From a virus, in the IMG/VR virus record IMGVR_UViG_3300010148_000109, positions 1-24,849 of that record: a stretch of DNA of 24,849 bases; one strand, 5' to 3'. Made by a program: the position numbers and the translations under genes. A model generated the notes under the pieces. The model was not told where the DNA came from, did no database searches, and saw only the letters and a program-made list of their open reading frames with translations. Shown here in pieces: positions 10,600 through 21,412 of the stretch. The stretch's first letter is position 1; each line of letters starts with the position of its first letter.

Positions 10600-10639
10600 A
10601 CGTAAAAAAAATAAAAATGCCAAAAGACGCATGTTATAA
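10538..10639 (+). CDS. Possible 33-aa Lys/Arg-rich helical peptide
   Basis: Third frame of the same stretch: M-E-N-K-L-D-R-L-K-R-K-L-E-E-R-K-E-K-R-A, a likely single charged helix, ending within the next gene. It links the lipoprotein gene (overlap) with the 53-aa basic protein (overlap from 10617). The low-complexity A-rich DNA could give this by chance. Confidence 0.35.
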   Translation: MENKLDRLKRKLEERKEKRAKRKKNKNAKRRML

Positions 10640-10778
10640 AAAAGTAAAAGCTAGATACAAGGTATTTCCTTCTGCTTATGCAAGTGGAGCTATAGCTAAA
10701 TGTAGAAAAGTTGGAGCTAGTAATTGGGGTACTAGTACTAAAAAGAAAAAAACTACTAGACGTAAAAAGAAAAAATAA
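10617..10778 (+). CDS. Small basic conserved phage protein (53 aa)
   Basis: Contains D-A-C-Y-K-K-V-K-A-R-Y-K-V-F-P-S-A-Y-A-S-G followed by A-K-C-R-K-V-G-A-S-N-W-G, then a pure Lys/Arg/Thr tail. I recall this Cys-Tyr-Lys-Val-Lys-Ala-Arg-Tyr...Pro-Ser-Ala-Tyr-Ala-Ser-Gly pattern as a recurring small protein of marine and other environmental phages, with no known function. The high positive charge suggests nucleic-acid binding, perhaps in the capsid. The stop overlaps the next start as TAATG. Confidence 0.75.
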   Translation: MPKDACYKKVKARYKVFPSAYASGAIAKCRKVGASNWGTSTKKKKTTRRKKKK

Positions 10779-11056
10779 TGGCGGTAAAAAAGTCTGCAAA
10801 AGGAGCTGCATTAAAGCGATGGTTTAAAGAAGAATGGATAGATGTGCGTACTGGTAAACCTTGCGGCAGAAAGAAAGGAGAAAAGCGTGGCACACCATAT
10901 TGTAGACCTAAGAAAAGAGTAAGCAGCAAAACTCCTAAAACAGCTAGTGAAATGACTGCATCTGAAAAACGTAGTAGAATATCTCAAAAGAAAAGATTAG
11001 GGCAACCAGCTGGAAAACCTAGAAGAGTTAAATCTTTAAAACGCAAAAAGAAATAA
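10778..11056 (+). CDS. Small basic conserved viral protein (92 aa)
   Basis: Very Lys/Arg rich. Recognisable blocks are K-R-W-F-K-E-E-W-I-D-V-R-T-G-K-P-C-G-R, G-E-K-R-G-T-P-Y-C-R-P and R-V-S-S-K-T-P-K-T-A-S-E-M-T. I recall this W-F-K-E-x-W-x-D-x-x-T-G-K-P-C-G-R family from phages and large eukaryotic DNA viruses as a protein of unknown function; no search was possible. The two conserved Cys could bind metal. Nucleic-acid binding is inferred from charge. Coupled by TAATG to the preceding gene. Confidence 0.8.
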   Translation: MAVKKSAKGAALKRWFKEEWIDVRTGKPCGRKKGEKRGTPYCRPKKRVSSKTPKTASEMTASEKRSRISQKKRLGQPAGKPRRVKSLKRKKK

Positions 11057-11058
11057 TT

Positions 11059-11184
11059 ATGGCAAAGTTAAGTTCTAAACAAAAACGCATTGCAAAAGCA
11101 GCAGCTCCTAAAAATAAAATTACAGGAGCAGATTTTAAAGCATTAAAAAGAAAAAAAAAGAAATCTAATGGCAAAAAAAAGTAA
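11059..11184 (+). CDS. Small basic phage protein (41 aa)
   Basis: M-A-K-L-S-S-K-Q-K-R-I-A-K-A-A-A-P then K-I-T-G-A-D-F-K-A-L-K and a Lys-rich tail. The S-x-K-Q-K-x-I-A...P...I-T-G-x-D-F-x-x-L pattern recurs in tiny proteins of many tailed phages (recollection); function unknown. It overlaps the next ORF by 17 nt in a different frame. Confidence 0.7.
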   Translation: MAKLSSKQKRIAKAAAPKNKITGADFKALKRKKKKSNGKKK

Positions 11185-11329
11185 ACTAACAACAAGACAA
11201 GAAAATGCTATGAATCGTCATAGTAAGCATCATACTAAAAAACATTTAAGCATGATGAAAAGACTTATGTTAAGTGGTAAAACCTTTACAGAATCTCATA
11301 AAATGGCTATGAAAAAGGTAGGTAAATAA
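11168..11329 (+). CDS. Small basic His-rich phage protein (53 aa)
   Basis: L-T-T-R-Q-E-N-A-M-N-R-H-S-K-H-H-T-K-K-H then M-K-R-L-M-L-S-G-K-T-F-T-E-S-H-K-M-A-M-K-K-V-G-K (two helices by eye). I recall this R-Q-x-x-x-x-x-H-S-x-H-H-T-x-K-H pattern as a conserved small protein in phages. The C-terminal S-G-x-T-F-x-x-A/S-H-K-x-A motif resembles a short DNA- or protein-contact helix pair. Function unknown. Out-of-frame overlap with the preceding gene supports coupled translation. Confidence 0.75.
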   Translation: MAKKSKLTTRQENAMNRHSKHHTKKHLSMMKRLMLSGKTFTESHKMAMKKVGK

Positions 11330-11339
11330 TAAATGACTC

Positions 11340-11353
11340 CAAATAATTATTTG
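11340..11353. promoter_or_regulatory. 14-bp perfect palindrome upstream of coiled-coil gene
   Basis: CAAATAATTATTTG reads identically on both strands and lies 14 nt before the 11368 start, in the only real gap of this gene run. It could be an operator or a start-region element (its core AATAATTATT recurs before two other genes). Chance is not excluded in such AT-rich DNA. Confidence 0.3.
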
Positions 11354-11367
11354 TAATTTACACATAA

Positions 11368-11718
11368 ATGGATATTCAAAGCATATTACTCAGTATTATA
11401 GGAATCCTACTAGGAGTAGTAAGCTTTTTTCTACGTTCATTGTGGGTTGATATTAAAAACAATAAAGAAAATATGGGCAAGCTTAAAGGCAAAATAGAGC
11501 TTGCAGAACAAAAGTCTGATCAATTAATAGACAAAGTATCCCACATTAACAATTTAAAAATACAACAGCTAACAGAAAAATTAGATATTTTTTGTAGAGA
11601 TATAAAAGAAGATATCAATAAGTTGAGTGATGAAATAATGATTATGAATCGTGGATCTATTCGCATTGATAGAGATGAAAAGGGTAGGTTTATAAAAATG
11701 AGAAAAGAAGATGTATAG
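11368..11718 (+). CDS. Single-helix membrane protein with long coiled coil (116 aa)
   Basis: Residues 4-23 (Q-S-I-L-L-S-I-I-G-I-L-L-G-V-V-S-F-F) form a membrane helix. Residues 30-100 are a charged coiled coil with heptad-like spacing (K-L-K-G-K-I-E-L-A-E-Q, Q-L-I-D-K-V). It sits beside the candidate endolysin gene, overlapping it by 8 nt. It could act in lysis (a second spanin-like or holin-accessory protein) or in membrane anchoring; nothing in the sequence decides. Similar topology occurs in two other proteins of this block, at 10142 and 12604. Confidence 0.7.
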   Translation: MDIQSILLSIIGILLGVVSFFLRSLWVDIKNNKENMGKLKGKIELAEQKSDQLIDKVSHINNLKIQQLTEKLDIFCRDIKEDINKLSDEIMIMNRGSIRIDRDEKGRFIKMRKEDV

Positions 11719-12304
11719 TCTTAATGATATTATAGATATAATGGAAAAAAAGAGTTATGTAGTATTTTCTGATGACTCTAAAAACTTTAATTTAAATATC
11801 GTTGGTATTCGCAATGAAGATGAAACTGCTAATACTTTTAACGATTACATGGTTATATTTTGGAAATATCGTGGACAATGGCATCAATTTGCTTTTAGTA
11901 TTACTACAGATCCTGGAGTTTATTGGCGTGAAAATCCTATAAATGTAAATGGAACGGCAATATTAAAACCTGGACAATACAGAGGTATGTGGCAGTTAGG
12001 TAAACATCAAGGTAAATATGAAGCTCTTAAACAGGTAAAGCCTGTAACAGTATATAGAGATAAAAACAAAAATCTTGTGTTAGATAGAGGAGATGAGGAA
12101 ACTGGTTTGTTTGGTATTAATCATCACAGAGCAACATCAAAAAAAGATTTTACAAGTACACAAGTAGATAAATGGAGTGCTGGTTGTCAAGTACAACCTA
12201 ACCCTGTTCTATTTGACTTGGAAATGCAAATGTTTAAAACTGCTGCTTCTATATGGGGTAACAGTTTTACTTACACATTATTAGAGGAAATTGACTTTAA
12301 ATAA
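11711..12304 (+). CDS. YkuD-like (L,D-transpeptidase-type) candidate endolysin
   Basis: A 197-aa soluble protein. The C-terminal half has G-L-F-G-I-N-H-H-R (H138, H139) and, 17 residues on, W-S-A-G-C-Q-V with Cys159. This spacing of a His with S-x-G-C resembles the catalytic motif of YkuD/L,D-transpeptidase folds, whose members act on peptidoglycan cross-links. A tryptophan-rich beta region precedes it (Y-M-V-I-F-W-K-Y-R-G-Q-W-H-Q-F-A-F). No signal peptide is visible, as expected for a holin-dependent endolysin. Location among membrane and spanin genes supports a lysis role. The alternative is a virion-associated peptidoglycan enzyme. The overall family assignment is by motif only. Confidence 0.6.
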   Translation: MYSLNDIIDIMEKKSYVVFSDDSKNFNLNIVGIRNEDETANTFNDYMVIFWKYRGQWHQFAFSITTDPGVYWRENPINVNGTAILKPGQYRGMWQLGKHQGKYEALKQVKPVTVYRDKNKNLVLDRGDEETGLFGINHHRATSKKDFTSTQVDKWSAGCQVQPNPVLFDLEMQMFKTAASIWGNSFTYTLLEEIDFK

Positions 12305-12310
12305 AAAATT

Positions 12311-12604
12311 ATGGCTTTAGATAAATCTAAAATGCCTTGTAATAAACCACGCAAATCACCTAATCCTAAAAAGAAAAAGGTCGTTAAAGCGTGTGCTAAT
12401 GGCAAAGAAAAAATTATACATTTCGGAGCTACTGGCTATGGACATAACTATAGTGCTGCGGCAAGAAAATCATTTCGTGCTAGACATAAATGTGGATCTG
12501 CTACAGACAAGATGAGTGCTAGATATTGGGCATGCAAAAATTTATGGGCAGGTAAAGGAGGAAGTACAAAAAGTTCTCCTAAATCACGTAGAGGTAAGTA
12601 CTAA
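12311..12604 (+). CDS. Small basic conserved viral protein (97 aa)
   Basis: Begins with K-M-P-C-N-K-P-R-K-S-P, then V-V-K-A-C-A-N-G-K-E-K-I-I-H-F-G-A, then R-K-S-F-R-A-R-H-K-C, then K-M-S-A-R-Y-W-A-C-K-N-L-W, ending Ser/Arg/Lys rich. The H/R-F-G...R-x-S-F-x-A-R-H...M-S-A-x-Y-W-A pattern is one I recall as widespread in phages and giant viruses without known function. Four spaced cysteines could bind zinc. Together with the genes at 10617-11329 it makes a set of tiny basic proteins. TAATG coupling to the next gene. Confidence 0.8.
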   Translation: MALDKSKMPCNKPRKSPNPKKKKVVKACANGKEKIIHFGATGYGHNYSAAARKSFRARHKCGSATDKMSARYWACKNLWAGKGGSTKSSPKSRRGKY

Positions 12605-15703: not shown

Positions 15704-15705
15704 AG

Positions 15706-15733
15706 AAAAAGGCAGCTAAAAAACTGCCTTTTA
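15706..15733. terminator. Bidirectional terminator between convergent gene blocks
   Basis: AAAAGGCAG (15707-15715) and CTGCCTTTT (15724-15732) pair perfectly around an 8-nt loop, with T-runs on both strands. It lies 3 nt after the rightward stop and about 40 nt past the end of the leftward RusA gene, as expected for a shared terminator of converging transcripts. Confidence 0.85.
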
Positions 15734-15774
15734 CTCACTTTTAAAATCAAATGTTCTGATGAAGGAACAAGAAC

Positions 15775-16149
15775 CTAGTTGCTAATATACGGAATAACAT
15801 ATATCTTTCCCTCATATCCCCATACTTTTTTTACATTTTTATATGTATGCACATAAGAGTCTTCTTTTGCTAATGCATCTTGAAATGCTTTTATTAAATT
15901 ATCTAGATCTGGTCTTTGCGTGTGTGGTTGGTGTTCCATTTCACGTTTCTTTTTTTTAGACCAAGATTTAGGCATCGGCAAAACAAAAGTCATAGATAAG
16001 GTAGAAGTAATATTATATTTATTTATAAAAGCCTCCTCACGTAAGTCATCACAATACTTGTAATAACGTAAAACACAAGGGCGTTTAGACCAACGATCAC
16101 GTTGAGTCATTCTAGGTTTTGGTATTGGAATAACATTTAATATCATCAT
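15775..16149 (-). CDS. rusA: RusA-family Holliday junction resolvase
   Basis: A 124-aa protein, the usual RusA length. It has the N-terminal strand I-P-I-P-K-P-R-M-T, then L-P-M-P-K-S-W-S-K-K-K, then R-P-D-L-D-N-L-I-K-A-F-Q-D-A-L with D81, D83, K87 and D91, and D97 in the next turn. In the family these acidic residues and the lysine cut four-way DNA junctions, clearing recombination or replication intermediates before packaging. It starts in an ATGA overlap with the preceding gene and is the last leftward gene before the shared terminator. Start M1 or M2 cannot be separated. Confidence 0.9.
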   Translation of the reverse strand: MMILNVIPIPKPRMTQRDRWSKRPCVLRYYKYCDDLREEAFINKYNITSTLSMTFVLPMPKSWSKKKKREMEHQPHTQRPDLDNLIKAFQDALAKEDSYVHTYKNVKKVWGYEGKIYVIPYISN

Positions 16150-17130: not shown

Positions 17131-17195
17131 TTCTTATCGTTTTCATTACTAAATATAAATTCTTGTTCATCTCCTGGATCTGATATTATAAACAT
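17127..17195 (-). CDS. 22-codon mini-ORF bridging a gap
   Basis: Starts inside the end of the preceding small gene (29-nt overlap, other frame) and stops in an ATGA overlap with the next one, so it joins two genes otherwise 36 nt apart. The peptide is acidic (S-D-P-G-D-E-Q-E-F). Either a coupling ORF or chance. Confidence 0.35.
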   Translation of the reverse strand: MFIISDPGDEQEFIFSNENDKK

Positions 17196-17331
17196 AACGT
17201 GGTAATCTTTTTGTTAATGACTTAATAGATATTGTAATCTTATGATTAGCAAATAGTACGTCTTGAACAATATGAACATTGTTGTTGTACTTTTTTAAAT
17301 AGTATTTTATTAGATCGTTATTAGACTTCAT
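17167..17331 (-). CDS. Hypothetical small basic protein (54 aa)
   Basis: The frame is open further upstream inside the nuclease gene, but the ATG at 17331, overlapping the nuclease stop by 11 nt, fits the pattern of the genome. The product starts M-K-S-N-N-D-L-I-K-Y-Y-L-K-K-Y, contains a short strand (H-K-I-T-I-S-I-K-S-L) and ends with R-S-R-R. The start resembles small helix-turn-helix-like peptides (L-I-K-Y-Y-L...N-N-x-H-I-V-Q-D), but this is weak. Confidence 0.55.
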   Translation of the reverse strand: MKSNNDLIKYYLKKYNNNVHIVQDVLFANHKITISIKSLTKRLPRYVYNIRSRR

Positions 17332-18061
17332 AGTAGTTAACATAATCTTTAAAGTTAAACTTGTTGTCAATGAATGTTGATTTATACAAGTCAAATAATC
17401 TTTTGTATTTCTCATAACCTTCCATCAATGTTTCAGATGTAGCTTTTACCAACATAGGAATATAAGGTTCTTTCTTTTCTTGTACAACCCAAAAGAAATC
17501 TAACTGATGACCTTCGCCAAACTGGTACCATGCAGCTTGCCTGTCATAGTCATAAAGATATCTAACGGCATGCTTCCAATAAGATATACTACCTTCTTTT
17601 GCTGTCTTCAAATCAACAATAGCTTCGCCAGGAATATAGTTATCCAGCTTACCTTTGCACTTTACACCTTTATACTCCCATTGTAGTATCTTTTGTTTTT
17701 CACCAATACGAAGCATTTCATATATATCGTGGTAATTCTGTAAGCTATCTGCCATATTCTTAATTGTCAAGAAATCGTTATAACGTATAGACTCTTTGTC
17801 TTTGTTGTCTTGTAGCCATTCTTTGTAGGCTTTAGTGCCTCTACGCATACCTGCTGGCATAATGGCATATTTGTCGGCAAAAACATCAGGCTCTAATAAA
17901 TACTCATCATAGTAATTACCAAATGACAATGAATCAGTAGACTTAGTTAGTTTGCCTTTTAGATAGAACTCCAAATGTAAAGGAGATTCTTTTATATACC
18001 CTAACATAGAGTTTGTTAAGTGTGTTGTGTCTGAGTAATAATTGTCATTAGTAATTTTCAT
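17321..18061 (-). CDS. RecE-like PD-(D/E)XK exonuclease
   Basis: A 246-aa nuclease. Residues 46-59 (S-F-G-N-Y-Y-D-E-Y-L-L-E-P-D) match the G-x-x-x-H-x-x-L-L-E-P block of exonuclease VIII/RecE-type proteins, with Tyr where His is usual. The core is W-E-Y-K-G-V-K-C-K-G-K-L-D (D140), then I-V-D-L-K-T-A-K (D150, K152), then D-R-Q-A-A-W-Y at 173-179. These are the metal and catalytic positions of the fold. The family resects DNA ends 5' to 3' for single-strand annealing. No annealing protein is obvious in this window. Starts 14 nt inside the DnaA-like gene. Confidence 0.85.
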   Translation of the reverse strand: MKITNDNYYSDTTHLTNSMLGYIKESPLHLEFYLKGKLTKSTDSLSFGNYYDEYLLEPDVFADKYAIMPAGMRRGTKAYKEWLQDNKDKESIRYNDFLTIKNMADSLQNYHDIYEMLRIGEKQKILQWEYKGVKCKGKLDNYIPGEAIVDLKTAKEGSISYWKHAVRYLYDYDRQAAWYQFGEGHQLDFFWVVQEKKEPYIPMLVKATSETLMEGYEKYKRLFDLYKSTFIDNKFNFKDYVNYYEV

Positions 18062-18440
18062 GGTTTTCTAAATGTTTTGATTTTAAAAAATTGTAAGTGT
18101 TTTTATATACAGCATCTGTAAATAAATCATTCTCATGCGCTTGATAAGCATGCACTATAGTAGAATGATCAAGATTGCATTTCTTTCCTATATACATATA
18201 AGGAGCATTATAGTGTTCTCTAAGTATGCCGTAAAGCATTTGCCTGGCTTGTATATATTCTTTCTTTCTGCTTCTAACTAATAAGTGAGTATCAATAAAA
18301 GAAAAATGAGAATTTATAAGTTCACATATTTTATCAAAGGTATCATGCAATAATATCCTTCTAGGTGGTTTGTTGTCTGATAAACCTACCCAAACATAGG
18401 GATGTATTATTCCCTCATCAAGGTTCCTTTCTCCATGCAT
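18048..18440 (-). CDS. DnaA domain IV-like DNA-binding protein (130 aa)
   Basis: The C-terminal 70 residues follow DnaA domain IV: Y-I-Q-A-R-Q-M-L-Y-G-I-L-R-E (62-75), Y-I-G-K-K-C-N-L-D-H-S-T-I-V-H-A (83-98) and a last helix. D-H-S-T-I-V-H-A is the DnaA signature that contacts the DnaA box. The AAA+ ATPase domain is absent; the first 50 residues are unlike DnaA domains I-III. Such a protein could bind host or phage DnaA boxes, either helping to load the neighbouring helicase at a phage origin or titrating host sites. A perfect DnaA box lies at 21225-21233. Starts 34 nt inside the preceding small gene. Confidence 0.8.
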   Translation of the reverse strand: MHGERNLDEGIIHPYVWVGLSDNKPPRRILLHDTFDKICELINSHFSFIDTHLLVRSRKKEYIQARQMLYGILREHYNAPYMYIGKKCNLDHSTIVHAYQAHENDLFTDAVYKNTYNFLKSKHLENHENY

Positions 18441-18637
18441 TTGATTAAAAGTTTATTTTTAGAAATAAATTCTGATAATGTATAAGTATCCCATACTTCA
18501 TCTATCTTATTATATATATGAAAAGCATCATCTTCATATTTTAAATACATTCTAATGGCTGTGCCTCCAGATACACAAAGTATACTGGTAGGTCTATCTC
18601 CAATAGCGTCTATCAATGAATTAATACTAGTAATCAT
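18407..18637 (-). CDS. Hypothetical small protein (76 aa)
   Basis: The frame opens at 18727, but that upstream part overlaps a well-formed 53-aa gene. The ATG at 18637, overlapping the 53-aa gene's stop by 11 nt, is the likely start. The sequence includes S-I-L-C-V-S-G-G-T-A-I-R-M-Y-L-K-Y and D-A-F-H-I-Y-N-K-I-D-E-V-W, a beta-rich small protein. Family not recognised. Confidence 0.65.
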   Translation of the reverse strand: MITSINSLIDAIGDRPTSILCVSGGTAIRMYLKYEDDAFHIYNKIDEVWDTYTLSEFISKNKLLIKCMEKGTLMRE

Positions 18638-18788
18638 AATATTTAAGTATATAAGATGCAAAAGTAGTAGTAACCTTATATCCATTAAAGTCAAAGTCAG
18701 TACTGTTAGAGTATAGAGTTTCCTCATATCTCTTTATAAATTCTGTTAATTCAGTTTCAGTTAAGTTAGAAAAGTATTCCATTATCAT
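18627..18788 (-). CDS. Hypothetical small protein (53 aa)
   Basis: Fills the gap between the NinB-like gene (5 nt away) and the 76-aa gene (11-nt overlap). It opens M-I-M-E-Y-F-S-N-L-T-E-T-E-L-T-E-F-I-K-R, then F-N-G-Y-K-V-T-T-T-F-A-S-Y. Tight packing supports it as a real gene. Function unknown. Confidence 0.6.
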   Translation of the reverse strand: MIMEYFSNLTETELTEFIKRYEETLYSNSTDFDFNGYKVTTTFASYILKYYDY

Positions 18789-18792
18789 TAAT

Positions 18793-19242
18793 CTAAATTA
18801 GGTTCCCATAATATGAATCTCGGTCTGGTATATACAAACCATATTCTGCCCACATTTTTTGGACACTAGCTATAAAGATACCAAATTCTTTGGAGTTCAT
18901 CTTGCTAGGAGTCTTACCTTCTGAGCGAGAAATAATCGGCACAGATAAAACCTCCTTTACCATAAAGTCATCACCAAGTATTTGCTTTAAATTATAAGAA
19001 TGTATATCATCTTTAGTTATAGGCTCTCCTATATATTCATCTAAAAACTCCTTAATTAAAGGAATAATAAATCCCCAATAAAAAGCATTTTGTTTTAGAC
19101 TGCGATGATTGTGATATTCTTTTACTGTTATAAGAGCGTTCTTATCTTCAAACCTAGCAAGTGTAGCTTCCCATACCTCTCTATTGTATGGTACTATTTT
19201 TCTACCACTAAAACGGATCGGTATAATCATTTCCTGTGCCAT
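18793..19242 (-). CDS. NinB-like recombination protein
   Basis: The frame is open from 19320, but the first 26 residues lie wholly within the helicase gene and look unlike protein. The ATG at 19242 (M-A-Q-E-M-I-I-P-I-R) gives 149 aa and a 35-nt overlap with helicase. The motif R-S-L-K-Q-N-A-F-Y-W-G (47-57) followed by I-x-E-F-L-D-E-Y-I-G and D-D-I-H-S-Y-N-L-K is typical of NinB/Orf-like phage proteins. In lambda, NinB (Orf) assists RecA-type recombination by binding SSB and single-stranded DNA. Next to helicase, RecE-like nuclease and RusA, a recombination-mediator role fits. Family call by motif only. Confidence 0.65.
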   Translation of the reverse strand: MAQEMIIPIRFSGRKIVPYNREVWEATLARFEDKNALITVKEYHNHRSLKQNAFYWGFIIPLIKEFLDEYIGEPITKDDIHSYNLKQILGDDFMVKEVLSVPIISRSEGKTPSKMNSKEFGIFIASVQKMWAEYGLYIPDRDSYYGNLI

Positions 19243-20581
19243 AATATAAATTGTTATAGTTACTTTTTTCTTCGTATTCTTTAAATTGATTAGTAGGTAG
19301 GTTAAACATAGTTCTGCCAATACCAGTACCAGTATTTCTACCTTTAGCTACAATAAGCTCTGCCTCTTGTTCAGGCTCATTCATTGTGTTATGGTCGTAA
19401 TAGTCAGGTCTATGTATAAGAATAATGTTATCTGCATCATTCTCAATACTACCTGATTCACGTAAGTCAGACATCTGAGGTCTAGAAGCTTTGCGACTTT
19501 CAGCTTGTCGTGATAACTGAGCAAGCATAATAACTGGTATGTTCAGTTCTTTAGCAATCTCATTTTTCATTACAGAAGATATGTATGCAACCTCCTGTTC
19601 ACGACTACGACTATTGTTTTGATATCTTATCAATTGCAAATAATCAACGATAACAACATCAATATCGTGCTTAGTCTTTAGATATTTAATCTTTGCTATA
19701 ATATCATTAAGCTTGTTAGATGTGTCGTCAATGATTATGTATTCATCACGTATCAAAGCAAAAGTATCGGCAAAGTCCTTCTGTTTACTATAATAGTACC
19801 CTTCTTCTCTAAAGTTAGATATATTAACATTATTATCAATTGCTAGTAGTCTTGTTACCAGTTGATTAAAAGACATCTCTAAACTAAAGAAAGGGACTCT
19901 AAAGCCTTGTTTTGATATATTTAGTAGTAAGTTAAGACCAAGTGCAGTTTTGCCCATAGAAGGTCTGCCTGCAACAATGGTAATAGTCTGTGGATCAAAA
20001 CCATAAATGATATTATCTAATGCATTTATTTTTGTTCTAATGACTTTTTTATCACTATTAAAACTGTTATGAAAATCCAAAAGCAAATCATAAGCGGATT
20101 TACTACTTGCATTATTTTCAAATATATCCAAGATTGATTTACGTGCTTTTTCTGATAATTCATTTAGATCTTTTTTGTTTACAACATTCATAAATATTTC
20201 CTGAGTTAGAAGAAGTAGTTTGCGTCTAACGTGATGTTCGTGCAAAACTTTAATCTGTTCTTCTAATCCTTTGTCAATATTTACTCCATGATCTAATAGA
20301 CCTACAAGGTAATCATTTACCTTCTGTATATCCAACAGCTTGAATATCTCAAAGCTTGATAGCTTATCTAAGACTACGTCTTTGTCTAAGCTTTTAAAGT
20401 TATTTTCAGTAAGTATTTTAGATATAGCCTTATTCTTCTCGTCAAAGAAATATTCAGTTTGTAGCTTGTCTTTGTACTGTGTATATAATTCATAGCTTTT
20501 CAGCATACTGCCTAATACACGCTTTTCAATGACAAGATTGTTAGCATTGCTATAGGCACTATCAATAAGGTTTAGGCTCAT
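19208..20581 (-). CDS. dnaB: Replicative DNA helicase, DnaB family
   Basis: 457 aa, full length for the family. The N-terminal helical domain (about 12-150) starts I-E-K-R-V-L-G-S-M-L. The RecA-like ATPase core has Walker A G-R-P-S-M-G-K-T (205-212), catalytic S-L-E-M (E235), Walker B V-V-I-V-D-Y-L-Q-L-I (309-318), Q-L-S-R (354-357) and D-L-R-E-S-G-S-I-E-N-D-A-D. As a hexameric ring it unwinds DNA 5' to 3' on the lagging strand and works with the primase encoded upstream. A 118-nt gap with a hairpin precedes it, so its expression may be reduced or separately controlled. No loader gene is recognised here, unless the DnaA-like protein helps. Confidence 0.95.
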   Translation of the reverse strand: MSLNLIDSAYSNANNLVIEKRVLGSMLKSYELYTQYKDKLQTEYFFDEKNKAISKILTENNFKSLDKDVVLDKLSSFEIFKLLDIQKVNDYLVGLLDHGVNIDKGLEEQIKVLHEHHVRRKLLLLTQEIFMNVVNKKDLNELSEKARKSILDIFENNASSKSAYDLLLDFHNSFNSDKKVIRTKINALDNIIYGFDPQTITIVAGRPSMGKTALGLNLLLNISKQGFRVPFFSLEMSFNQLVTRLLAIDNNVNISNFREEGYYYSKQKDFADTFALIRDEYIIIDDTSNKLNDIIAKIKYLKTKHDIDVVIVDYLQLIRYQNNSRSREQEVAYISSVMKNEIAKELNIPVIMLAQLSRQAESRKASRPQMSDLRESGSIENDADNIILIHRPDYYDHNTMNEPEQEAELIVAKGRNTGTGIGRTMFNLPTNQFKEYEEKSNYNNLYYGTGNDYTDPF

Positions 20582-20606
20582 TTTAAAGATTTTAAAAGTA
20601 AAAAGT

Positions 20607-20668
20607 AAAAAAGGGAGAAAGATGGATAGCTTGAGGTAGAAACTTTAAATGCTCCTTCTCCCCTTTTT
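20607..20668 (-). terminator. Candidate terminator or leader hairpin before helicase gene
   Basis: On the leftward strand, AAAAAGGGGAGAAG (20668-20655) can pair with CTTTCTCCCTTTTTT (20621-20607) over about 12 bp with one bulge. T-rich sequence follows (TTTTTTACTTTTTACTTTT). The loop of about 34 nt is long for an intrinsic terminator, so attenuation or mRNA protection is possible instead. The rest of the 118-nt gap shows no convincing promoter. Confidence 0.4.
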
Positions 20669-20699
20669 ACTGAACAGTCATGGCTAAATGACTAAAAGA

Positions 20700-21143
20700 T
20701 TATTTATACTTGTTAATGAACTGCGTAGCAGATGATTTTAACAAAGTATTTCCATCAATAGCTTGACTAACTTCCTGTGCTTCTGTCATAGGTACGTTAG
20801 GATTCTTTTGTATGATATCCTTAACCCACTTTACTTGTCCAGCACTAGCTGTTGCATTAGGATCGCTAGGAGCGTAGTTAGCATTGCTTTTATTGTATCC
20901 ATTGTTGTTATACTGTTTCTTATAACCACCGTTGTTGTATGGCTTTTTGTAGCCTGTGTCTTCAACCTTGTGGTTTTCGTTAGCAGCAATAATAACATCA
21001 TAATAGAAATCAATAGCTTTTAACATGATTTCTTTTTTCTCTTCAACACTAACAGCTTTCTTGTAAGTTTCAGAGTTCAAACAAGCAGCGTTTGCTAGGT
21101 TTACAGATTGTCCAATAATGATTTCATTTCTTCTTGAATCCAT
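20700..21143 (-). CDS. Low-complexity-linker protein, possibly ssDNA- or replication-associated (147 aa)
   Basis: Three parts are visible. The N-terminal helical domain (1-58) opens R-R-N-E-I-I-I-G-Q-S-V-N-L-A-N. A disordered Asn/Gly/Tyr/Lys-rich linker (about 59-92) repeats G-Y-K-K and Y-N-N-N-G-Y. A C-terminal 45 residues (A-S-A-G-Q-V-K-W-V-K-D-I-I, then A-T-Q-F-I-N-K-Y-K) resembles the short S-x-x-Q-x-x-x-I-x-x-L helix module at the ends of many phage replication proteins. The N-terminal G-x-x-V-N-L-A motif recurs in phage early proteins near single-strand-binding genes (recollection). Own promoter, own leader with two-codon ORF, and the hairpin after it suggest high independent expression. 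No OB-fold is seen. Confidence 0.7.
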   Translation of the reverse strand: MDSRRNEIIIGQSVNLANAACLNSETYKKAVSVEEKKEIMLKAIDFYYDVIIAANENHKVEDTGYKKPYNNGGYKKQYNNNGYNKSNANYAPSDPNATASAGQVKWVKDIIQKNPNVPMTEAQEVSQAIDGNTLLKSSATQFINKYK

Positions 21144-21156
21144 TTCAATTCATTTA
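21141..21156 (-). promoter_or_regulatory. Repeated start-region element with two-codon ORF, copy 2
   Basis: The leftward strand reads TAAATGAATTGAAATG, identical to 14178-14193; the final ATG is the start at 21143. The two-codon ORF (ATG-AAT-TGA) occupies 21153-21145. AATAATTATT lies directly upstream in both copies. Confidence 0.6.
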
Positions 21157-21171
21157 ATAATTATTAAAAAG

Positions 21172-21203
21172 TAAAGATAAAAATATTCTGTGTCGCTATC
21201 AAA
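21172..21203 (-). promoter_or_regulatory. Candidate Bacteroidota promoter for the 21143 gene
   Basis: The leftward strand has TTTG (21203-21200), a 20-nt spacer, then TATCTTTA (21179-21172), matching TTTG-N19-21-TAnnTTTG except the last base. Expected transcription start is a few bases on, giving a leader of about 20-25 nt. Confidence 0.5.
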
Positions 21204-21219
21204 GCATGATACCAACATA

Positions 21220-21243
21220 CTAAATGTGGATAACCATATTTAG
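21220..21243. other. Imperfect hairpin containing a perfect DnaA box (possible origin)
   Basis: CTAAATGTGG (21220-21229) and CCATATTTAG (21234-21243) are inverted with one mismatch around ATAA. TGTGGATAA at 21225-21233 is the exact complement of the DnaA box TTATCCACA. It lies in a 97-nt intergenic gap, two nucleotides after the stop of the 55-aa gene and before the promoter of the 21143 gene. No T-run follows, so it is not a terminator. Confidence 0.45.
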
Positions 21244-21244
21244 T

Positions 21245-21412
21245 CTAATATACTAGATCTATAGAAGAACTCTGCTGATAAGGATCTGTAACGTACCAAG
21301 CGGCAACAACCTTTTCAGGATCAATTGCCTCTGATGCTTTTACAACACCTTCTCTTATGAGTTTCATAACAATTCTTCTCTTAAGATCTTTAATTTTGAT
21401 TTCGTATATCAT
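21245..21412 (-). CDS. Hypothetical small protein (55 aa)
   Basis: A gene too short for usual ORF cut-offs, filling most of the space between primase and the DnaA-box gap. It starts M-I-Y-E-I-K-I-K-D-L-K-R-R-I-V, has E-A-I-D-P-E-K-V-V-A-A-W-Y-V-T-D-P-Y in the middle and ends I-D-L-V-Y. A TATATTTG promoter element lies just 6 nt upstream, so the message could be nearly leaderless. Family not recognised. Confidence 0.6.
   Translation of the reverse strand: MIYEIKIKDLKRRIVMKLIREGVVKASEAIDPEKVVAAWYVTDPYQQSSSIDLVY

Follow-up and report, generated by a model that had tools for sequence, protein, structure and literature searches.

A protein of 130 residues encoded in a DNA fragment of a marine phage consists of a DnaA domain IV standing alone, and is a divergent addition to a known protein type. 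We propose, tentatively and with slightly less than even confidence, that it occupies DnaA sites, acting either on those of the host or as a regulator of the phage. The DNA is a 24,849-base IMG/VR virus record, hereafter the window, in which no end repeats were found, so that it is probably a fragment. An earlier note had suggested that this protein and a DnaA box near 21.2 kb form a phage origin or a decoy that titrates host DnaA; neither reading was supported by any of the tests run. The gene is as follows.

18048–18440, minus strand: stand-alone DnaA domain IV (Bac_DnaA_C) protein, 130 aa, from profile, phmmer and an AlphaFold2 model

The product passes the curated threshold of the PF08299 profile (45.1 bits, cut-off 31.5), with the Bac_DnaA_C match spanning residues 36–100, and it contains the sequence NLDHSTIVHA, the box-reading signature that the earlier note had pointed out. 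By phmmer, it aligns to 1l8q and to 1j1v, the complex of domain IV of E. coli DnaA with box DNA. Residues R399, R407, Q408, D433, H434, T435 and T436 make the base contacts in the 1j1v complex. In the alignment, R399, R407, Q408, D433, H434 and T436 are retained, T435 is replaced by serine and P423 by methionine. Compared with E. coli DnaA, the loop preceding the D-H pair is shorter by one residue, and a leucine takes the place of Arg432. An AlphaFold2 model, for which 13 pelagiphage homologues were used, has a disordered N-terminal tail of about 26 residues followed by five helices, including a helix-turn-helix, which together span residues 28–128. The model agrees with the domain IV assignment: although its confidence is moderate (pLDDT 67), the folds closest to it are without exception DnaA domain IV, with VIA-align Z scores of 12.9 to 3pvp and 12.5 to 1j1v and an rmsd of 2.0 over 92–95 residues (92 for 1j1v), against at most 5.7 for unrelated chains.

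We also searched the protein for an AAA+ domain III with Walker motifs. None is present, and the 130-residue reading frame matches domain IV alone, so that the ATPase domain is indeed missing, as had been claimed. Since domains I and III are both lacking, the protein cannot oligomerise with ATP, nor can it melt an origin or load a helicase; going by established DnaA biology, it should read DNA and do neither of the latter. Its mostly retained base-contact residues predict binding to the canonical box, TTATCCACA. However, the shortened loop before the D-H pair, with its missing Arg, means that the true target may differ from TTATCCACA, in which case counts of that box may be the wrong test.

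The DnaA-like gene sits among helicase, primase and recombination genes, which bears out its proposed place in a replication block. The recognisable genes of the block are listed below.

15775–16149, minus strand: RusA-type Holliday junction resolvase, from profile searches
17321–18061, minus strand: PD-(D/E)XK exonuclease (DUF3799), from profile searches
18793–19242, minus strand: NinB/Orf recombination mediator (phrog_72, 6.7e-13)
19208–20581, minus strand: DnaB-like replicative helicase (PF03796, 1.9e-75; phrog_19)
20700–21143, minus strand: protein of an unclassified family, 147 aa
21435–22436, minus strand: DnaG-type primase with zinc ribbon and Toprim, from profile searches

Plus-strand genes extend to 15.7 kb and converge, at a bidirectional terminator-like repeat, on minus-strand genes that begin at 15.78 kb. 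In order of transcription, the minus-strand block starts with the primase, a 55-residue ORF (21245–21412), the 147-residue gene, the helicase and NinB/Orf, and continues through small ORFs to the DnaA-like gene, the DUF3799 exonuclease, whose gene shares 14 bp with the end of the DnaA-like gene, more small genes and RusA. The annotated sequences nearest to the primase belong to crAss-like phages and a Riemerella phage occurs among the helicase matches, which makes a Bacteroidota host likely. Of the helicases found, the closest come from phages (Riemerella CRP6, G003 and G004) that are without a DnaA domain IV gene, which indicates that this gene is not a standing partner of the DnaB-like helicase. 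Elsewhere, small Lys/Arg-rich proteins of 53, 92, 53 and 97 residues are encoded among the late genes (10617–12604), and an extension past the window, taken from a sister contig, encodes a 112-residue protein (L016:912–1250) whose acidic DDMPF end resembles the tail of a single-stranded-DNA-binding protein.

Each of the eight HTVC010P-type pelagiphages examined has a gene for domain IV alone, as do 79 marine contigs; phages of Rhizobium, Aurantimonas, Pseudanabaena and Microcystis likewise encode domain-IV-only or longer domain IV proteins. DnaA is among the proteins common to all HTVC010P-related genomes (PMC6811365). In the literature searched on phage-encoded DnaA, we found no functional study of a stand-alone domain IV. 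Outside the sister contig, the closest protein found to that of the window is an HTVC010P-type DnaA-like protein. Members of this group (HTVC035P gp24, Greip gp42 and the Skadi DnaA-like protein) resemble it in being a stand-alone domain IV with a shortened loop and an N-[LQ]-D-H-[ST]-T signature (or G-Q-D-H), and their genes likewise lie in an early or recombination block. Identity is 20–28%, however, and the pelagiphage proteins are about 175 residues long with a conserved N-terminal region, compared with 130 in the window; helicase and primase are not annotated in HTVC010P-type genomes, whereas the window has both. The proteins of the Rhizobium, Aurantimonas AmM-1, Pam3 and Microcystis phages also carry domain IV with no recognised DnaA ATPase domain, but their genomes are high in GC, unlike the window; in addition, RHph_N28_2 keeps the bacterial G-R-D-H signature, Pam3 has G-R-D-R, and the AmM-1 domain lies within a 396-residue protein. 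In Rhizobium phage I1_23 (L134:38084) and Microcystis phage Mae-JY35 (L133:40385), the DnaA domain IV gene likewise has RusA a few genes away; this nin-like position, shared with the window, is a recurrent one. The E. coli domain (1j1v) shares its fold, helix-turn-helix and base-contact residues with the window protein but belongs to a DnaA that carries domains I–III.

The site at 21.2 kb comprises these features.

21144–21244, minus strand: intergenic gap of 101 bp, 76% AT, between the 55-residue ORF and the 147-residue gene
21219–21244, neither strand assigned: imperfect inverted repeat with 11-bp arms and a 4-nt loop that holds the box, from sequence and folding
21225–21233, minus strand: perfect 9-mer DnaA box TTATCCACA, from a sequence scan of the window
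21191–21217, minus strand: second stem-loop of the gap, 5+5 bp, with a one-base bulge on each side

The box lies where the earlier note had placed it. It is the window's sole TTWTNCACA match, against 4.34 ± 1.87 expected from shuffles (3.9–4.3 over the estimates). A perfect box is expected 0.28–0.30 times per window (P about 0.25, slightly above the one in five quoted earlier) and 0.001 times in the 101-bp gap. The 26-bp repeat, ACTAAATGTGG-ATAA-CCATATTTAGT, begins right after the stop codon of ORF 21245–21412, and the box covers the end of one arm and the entire loop. The inverted repeat described before thus exists, though its arms are slightly longer than the 10 bp given. The arms contain one mismatch, G opposite T on the plus strand and A opposite C on the transcribed minus strand. 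A box within such a repeat did not arise in any of 1500 order-2 Markov simulations, which leaves a functional site possible. The conjunction was, however, defined after it had been seen.

For the site itself, there is an even chance that the box is a coincidental 9-mer in a gap that serves transcription punctuation, its stem-loops ending or stabilising transcripts around the 147-residue gene. This reading concerns the site alone and is compatible with a DnaA-site-occupying role for the protein. Apart from the chance frequency of the box, it draws on how common such structures are: repeats with a stem of 10, one mismatch and a loop of 3–8 have 21 overlapping counts in the window, where simulation gives 12.6 on average. 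The gap (76% AT, against 68% for the whole sequence) has a folding z of −2.3 to −4.1, varying with the stretch, energy set and shuffle, and in the RNA sense a U-rich stretch starts 6 nt after the second stem-loop. On the other side of the 147-residue gene lies a gap of the same layout, with stem-loops followed by a U-rich tract.

20582–20699, minus strand: gap of 118 bp, from folding

This second gap (folding z −3.0) holds a 19-bp stem (20604–20622/20653–20671), 89% complementary and with a T-rich tail, which is terminator-like and upstream of the helicase gene; a terminator scanner missed it owing to its long loop. Positions 15704–15774 are likewise structured with a T-rich tail, and further large gaps also have structure. 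Structured intergenic gaps are therefore usual in this phage, and punctuation around the 147-residue gene accounts for the hairpins with no need of an origin. Against punctuation, the terminator scan returned no intrinsic terminator, which would have a G+C-rich stem with a T run immediately behind it, at the 21.2-kb hairpins, and the stem with the box is weaker in the transcribed strand (−8.6 kcal/mol) than in the other (−11.8 kcal/mol). An Rfam search gave no match.

Less probable, and on balance unlikely, is that the 26-bp repeat is an operator at which a phage regulator, possibly the DnaA-like protein, controls the 147-residue gene. The palindrome is suitably placed, with the start codon (21143) some 75 bp downstream of it, and words resembling its half-site are slightly over-represented (33 against 22.6 expected, with up to two mismatches). 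However, binding of DnaA domain IV to its box is monomeric, the other intergenic gaps yielded no further good copy of the half-site, and no promoter match specific to the gap was found. Promoters of the Bacteroidota type, TANNTTTG, were set aside since they occur at chance-level frequency overall.

An origin at 21.2 kb appears improbable. In this reading, the DnaA-like protein would mark the box in the hairpin, either extruded or as duplex, and the DnaB-like helicase of the phage would be recruited to it. The arrangement has its attractions, as the box and inverted repeat lie in an AT-rich gap between the primase and helicase genes and their combination is rare in simulation. DnaA origins, however, use clusters of boxes, and a search of the window and a 5.2-kb sister-contig extension gave one box, with none in the extension; nor did we find an iteron family, tandem array or repeat family at the gap. 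For the AT-rich unwinding element that a DnaA origin would have beside its boxes, the comparison is 76% AT in the gap with 68% overall. The earlier note had looked to a skew change near 21.2 kb, where GC skew in fact keeps a constant sign (−0.05 to −0.14). Cumulative skew turns at about 15.75 kb alone, the sole sign change, where gene direction switches; skew follows gene strand in the window and is thus weak evidence on origin position. The protein furthermore has neither loader nor AAA+ parts. Phage lambda offers a comparison: lambda O is an AAA+-less DNA-binding initiator encoded in a replication operon with nin genes. Its second domain recruits P, and ori-lambda is an array of iterons. The window resembles this system in having an AAA+-less, predicted DNA-binding protein in a replication block with a nin-type gene, but neither a P-recruiting domain nor an iteron array was seen in it. 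The minimal form, in which a stand-alone domain IV on one hairpin box suffices for recruitment of the DnaB-like helicase without a classical loader, is more doubtful still.

To look for conservation of the site in relatives, we scanned viral contigs with the DnaA domain IV, helicase, exonuclease and primase proteins, with alignments and with two DNA patterns, and recovered only a sister contig, distant pelagiphages and unrelated helicase or exonuclease matches. The sister, the sole close relative found, has 99.88% identity over 8.3 kb. Its 10 differences all lie outside the box gap, which at this identity is uninformative on selection. Eight of the 10 fall within 211 bp (17190–17400), in or beside ORF 17167–17415, making this stretch a hot spot for local variation or recombination. 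The hairpin pattern was found in no other DnaA domain IV phage; its matches in six non-sister viral contigs, none with a DnaA domain IV gene or a homologue of the window in the sequence covered, are at chance level. Three matches to LDH[ST]T[IV]VHA in genome contigs were due to chance and not DnaA. Six unverified records deposited as 'Bacteriophage sp.' (MT837016, MT838540, MT839331, MT836067, MT837747 and MT838945) were rejected as phage homologues because they hold full-length bacterial dnaA and are host DNA; in one such record (L012), dnaA is accompanied by gyrase, recF and dnaN.

There was no sign of box excess among 14 other phages with DnaA domain IV proteins, which have two perfect TTATCCACA boxes against 4.6 expected and 35 TTWTNCACA matches against 57. 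The deficit lies at the 12.75th percentile of permuted patterns and is not significant, and we discarded it as evidence of avoidance. The decoy reading is very unlikely: many phage copies could conceivably sum to many boxes, but known titration sites carry clusters, and one box per 30 kb, with DnaA sites in the window below expectation, argues against it.

An element of the form TTAT[AC][AC]A[AC]A does recur in all eight HTVC010P-type leaders, ahead of the terminase-side operon. It is flanked by a promoter-like motif that is conserved and by a small ORF preceding the terminase gene, and its spacing from a conserved ATATATACATGGGA motif varies.

HTVC010P L019:667–675; L020:34887; L021:34523; L024:33552; L018:35728; L022:19952; Skadi2 and Greip leaders: pelagiphage leader element

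The element reads TTATCCACA in HTVC010P and TTATACACA in three others. As these leaders are CA-rich, a DnaA-box-like element there is a lead rather than a result. The presence of one such element makes a cis target for the DnaA-like protein plausible in this group.

We favour a DNA-occupying DnaA mimic because of the domain IV identity and fold, the base-contact residues, the missing AAA+ domain, the single box and the lack of box excess. Most likely, the protein would bind DnaA-box-like sites as a monomer and, by occupying them, compete with host DnaA, or modulate it, at the origin of the host and at promoters under DnaA control. Alternatively, it may be a site-specific regulator of the phage, and the box and hairpin at 21.2 kb are a possible, unproven target. 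Both binding and the direction of its effect are inferred, and action on the host is our proposal; a host or regulator role is more likely than origin building. Counting against this explanation are the absence of a box in a repeat from all the simulations, the pelagiphage leader element, the shortened loop and the non-significant box deficit.

Stand-alone DnaA domain IV genes are already annotated in marine pelagiphages, rhizobial phages and cyanophages, and the window adds a divergent member beside its own helicase and primase. If such proteins mark phage origins, they would represent an initiator without an ATPase, although the box survey argues against a simple version of this acting in cis. 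If instead their effect is to block or redirect host DnaA, such proteins would constitute a shared phage lever on host replication.
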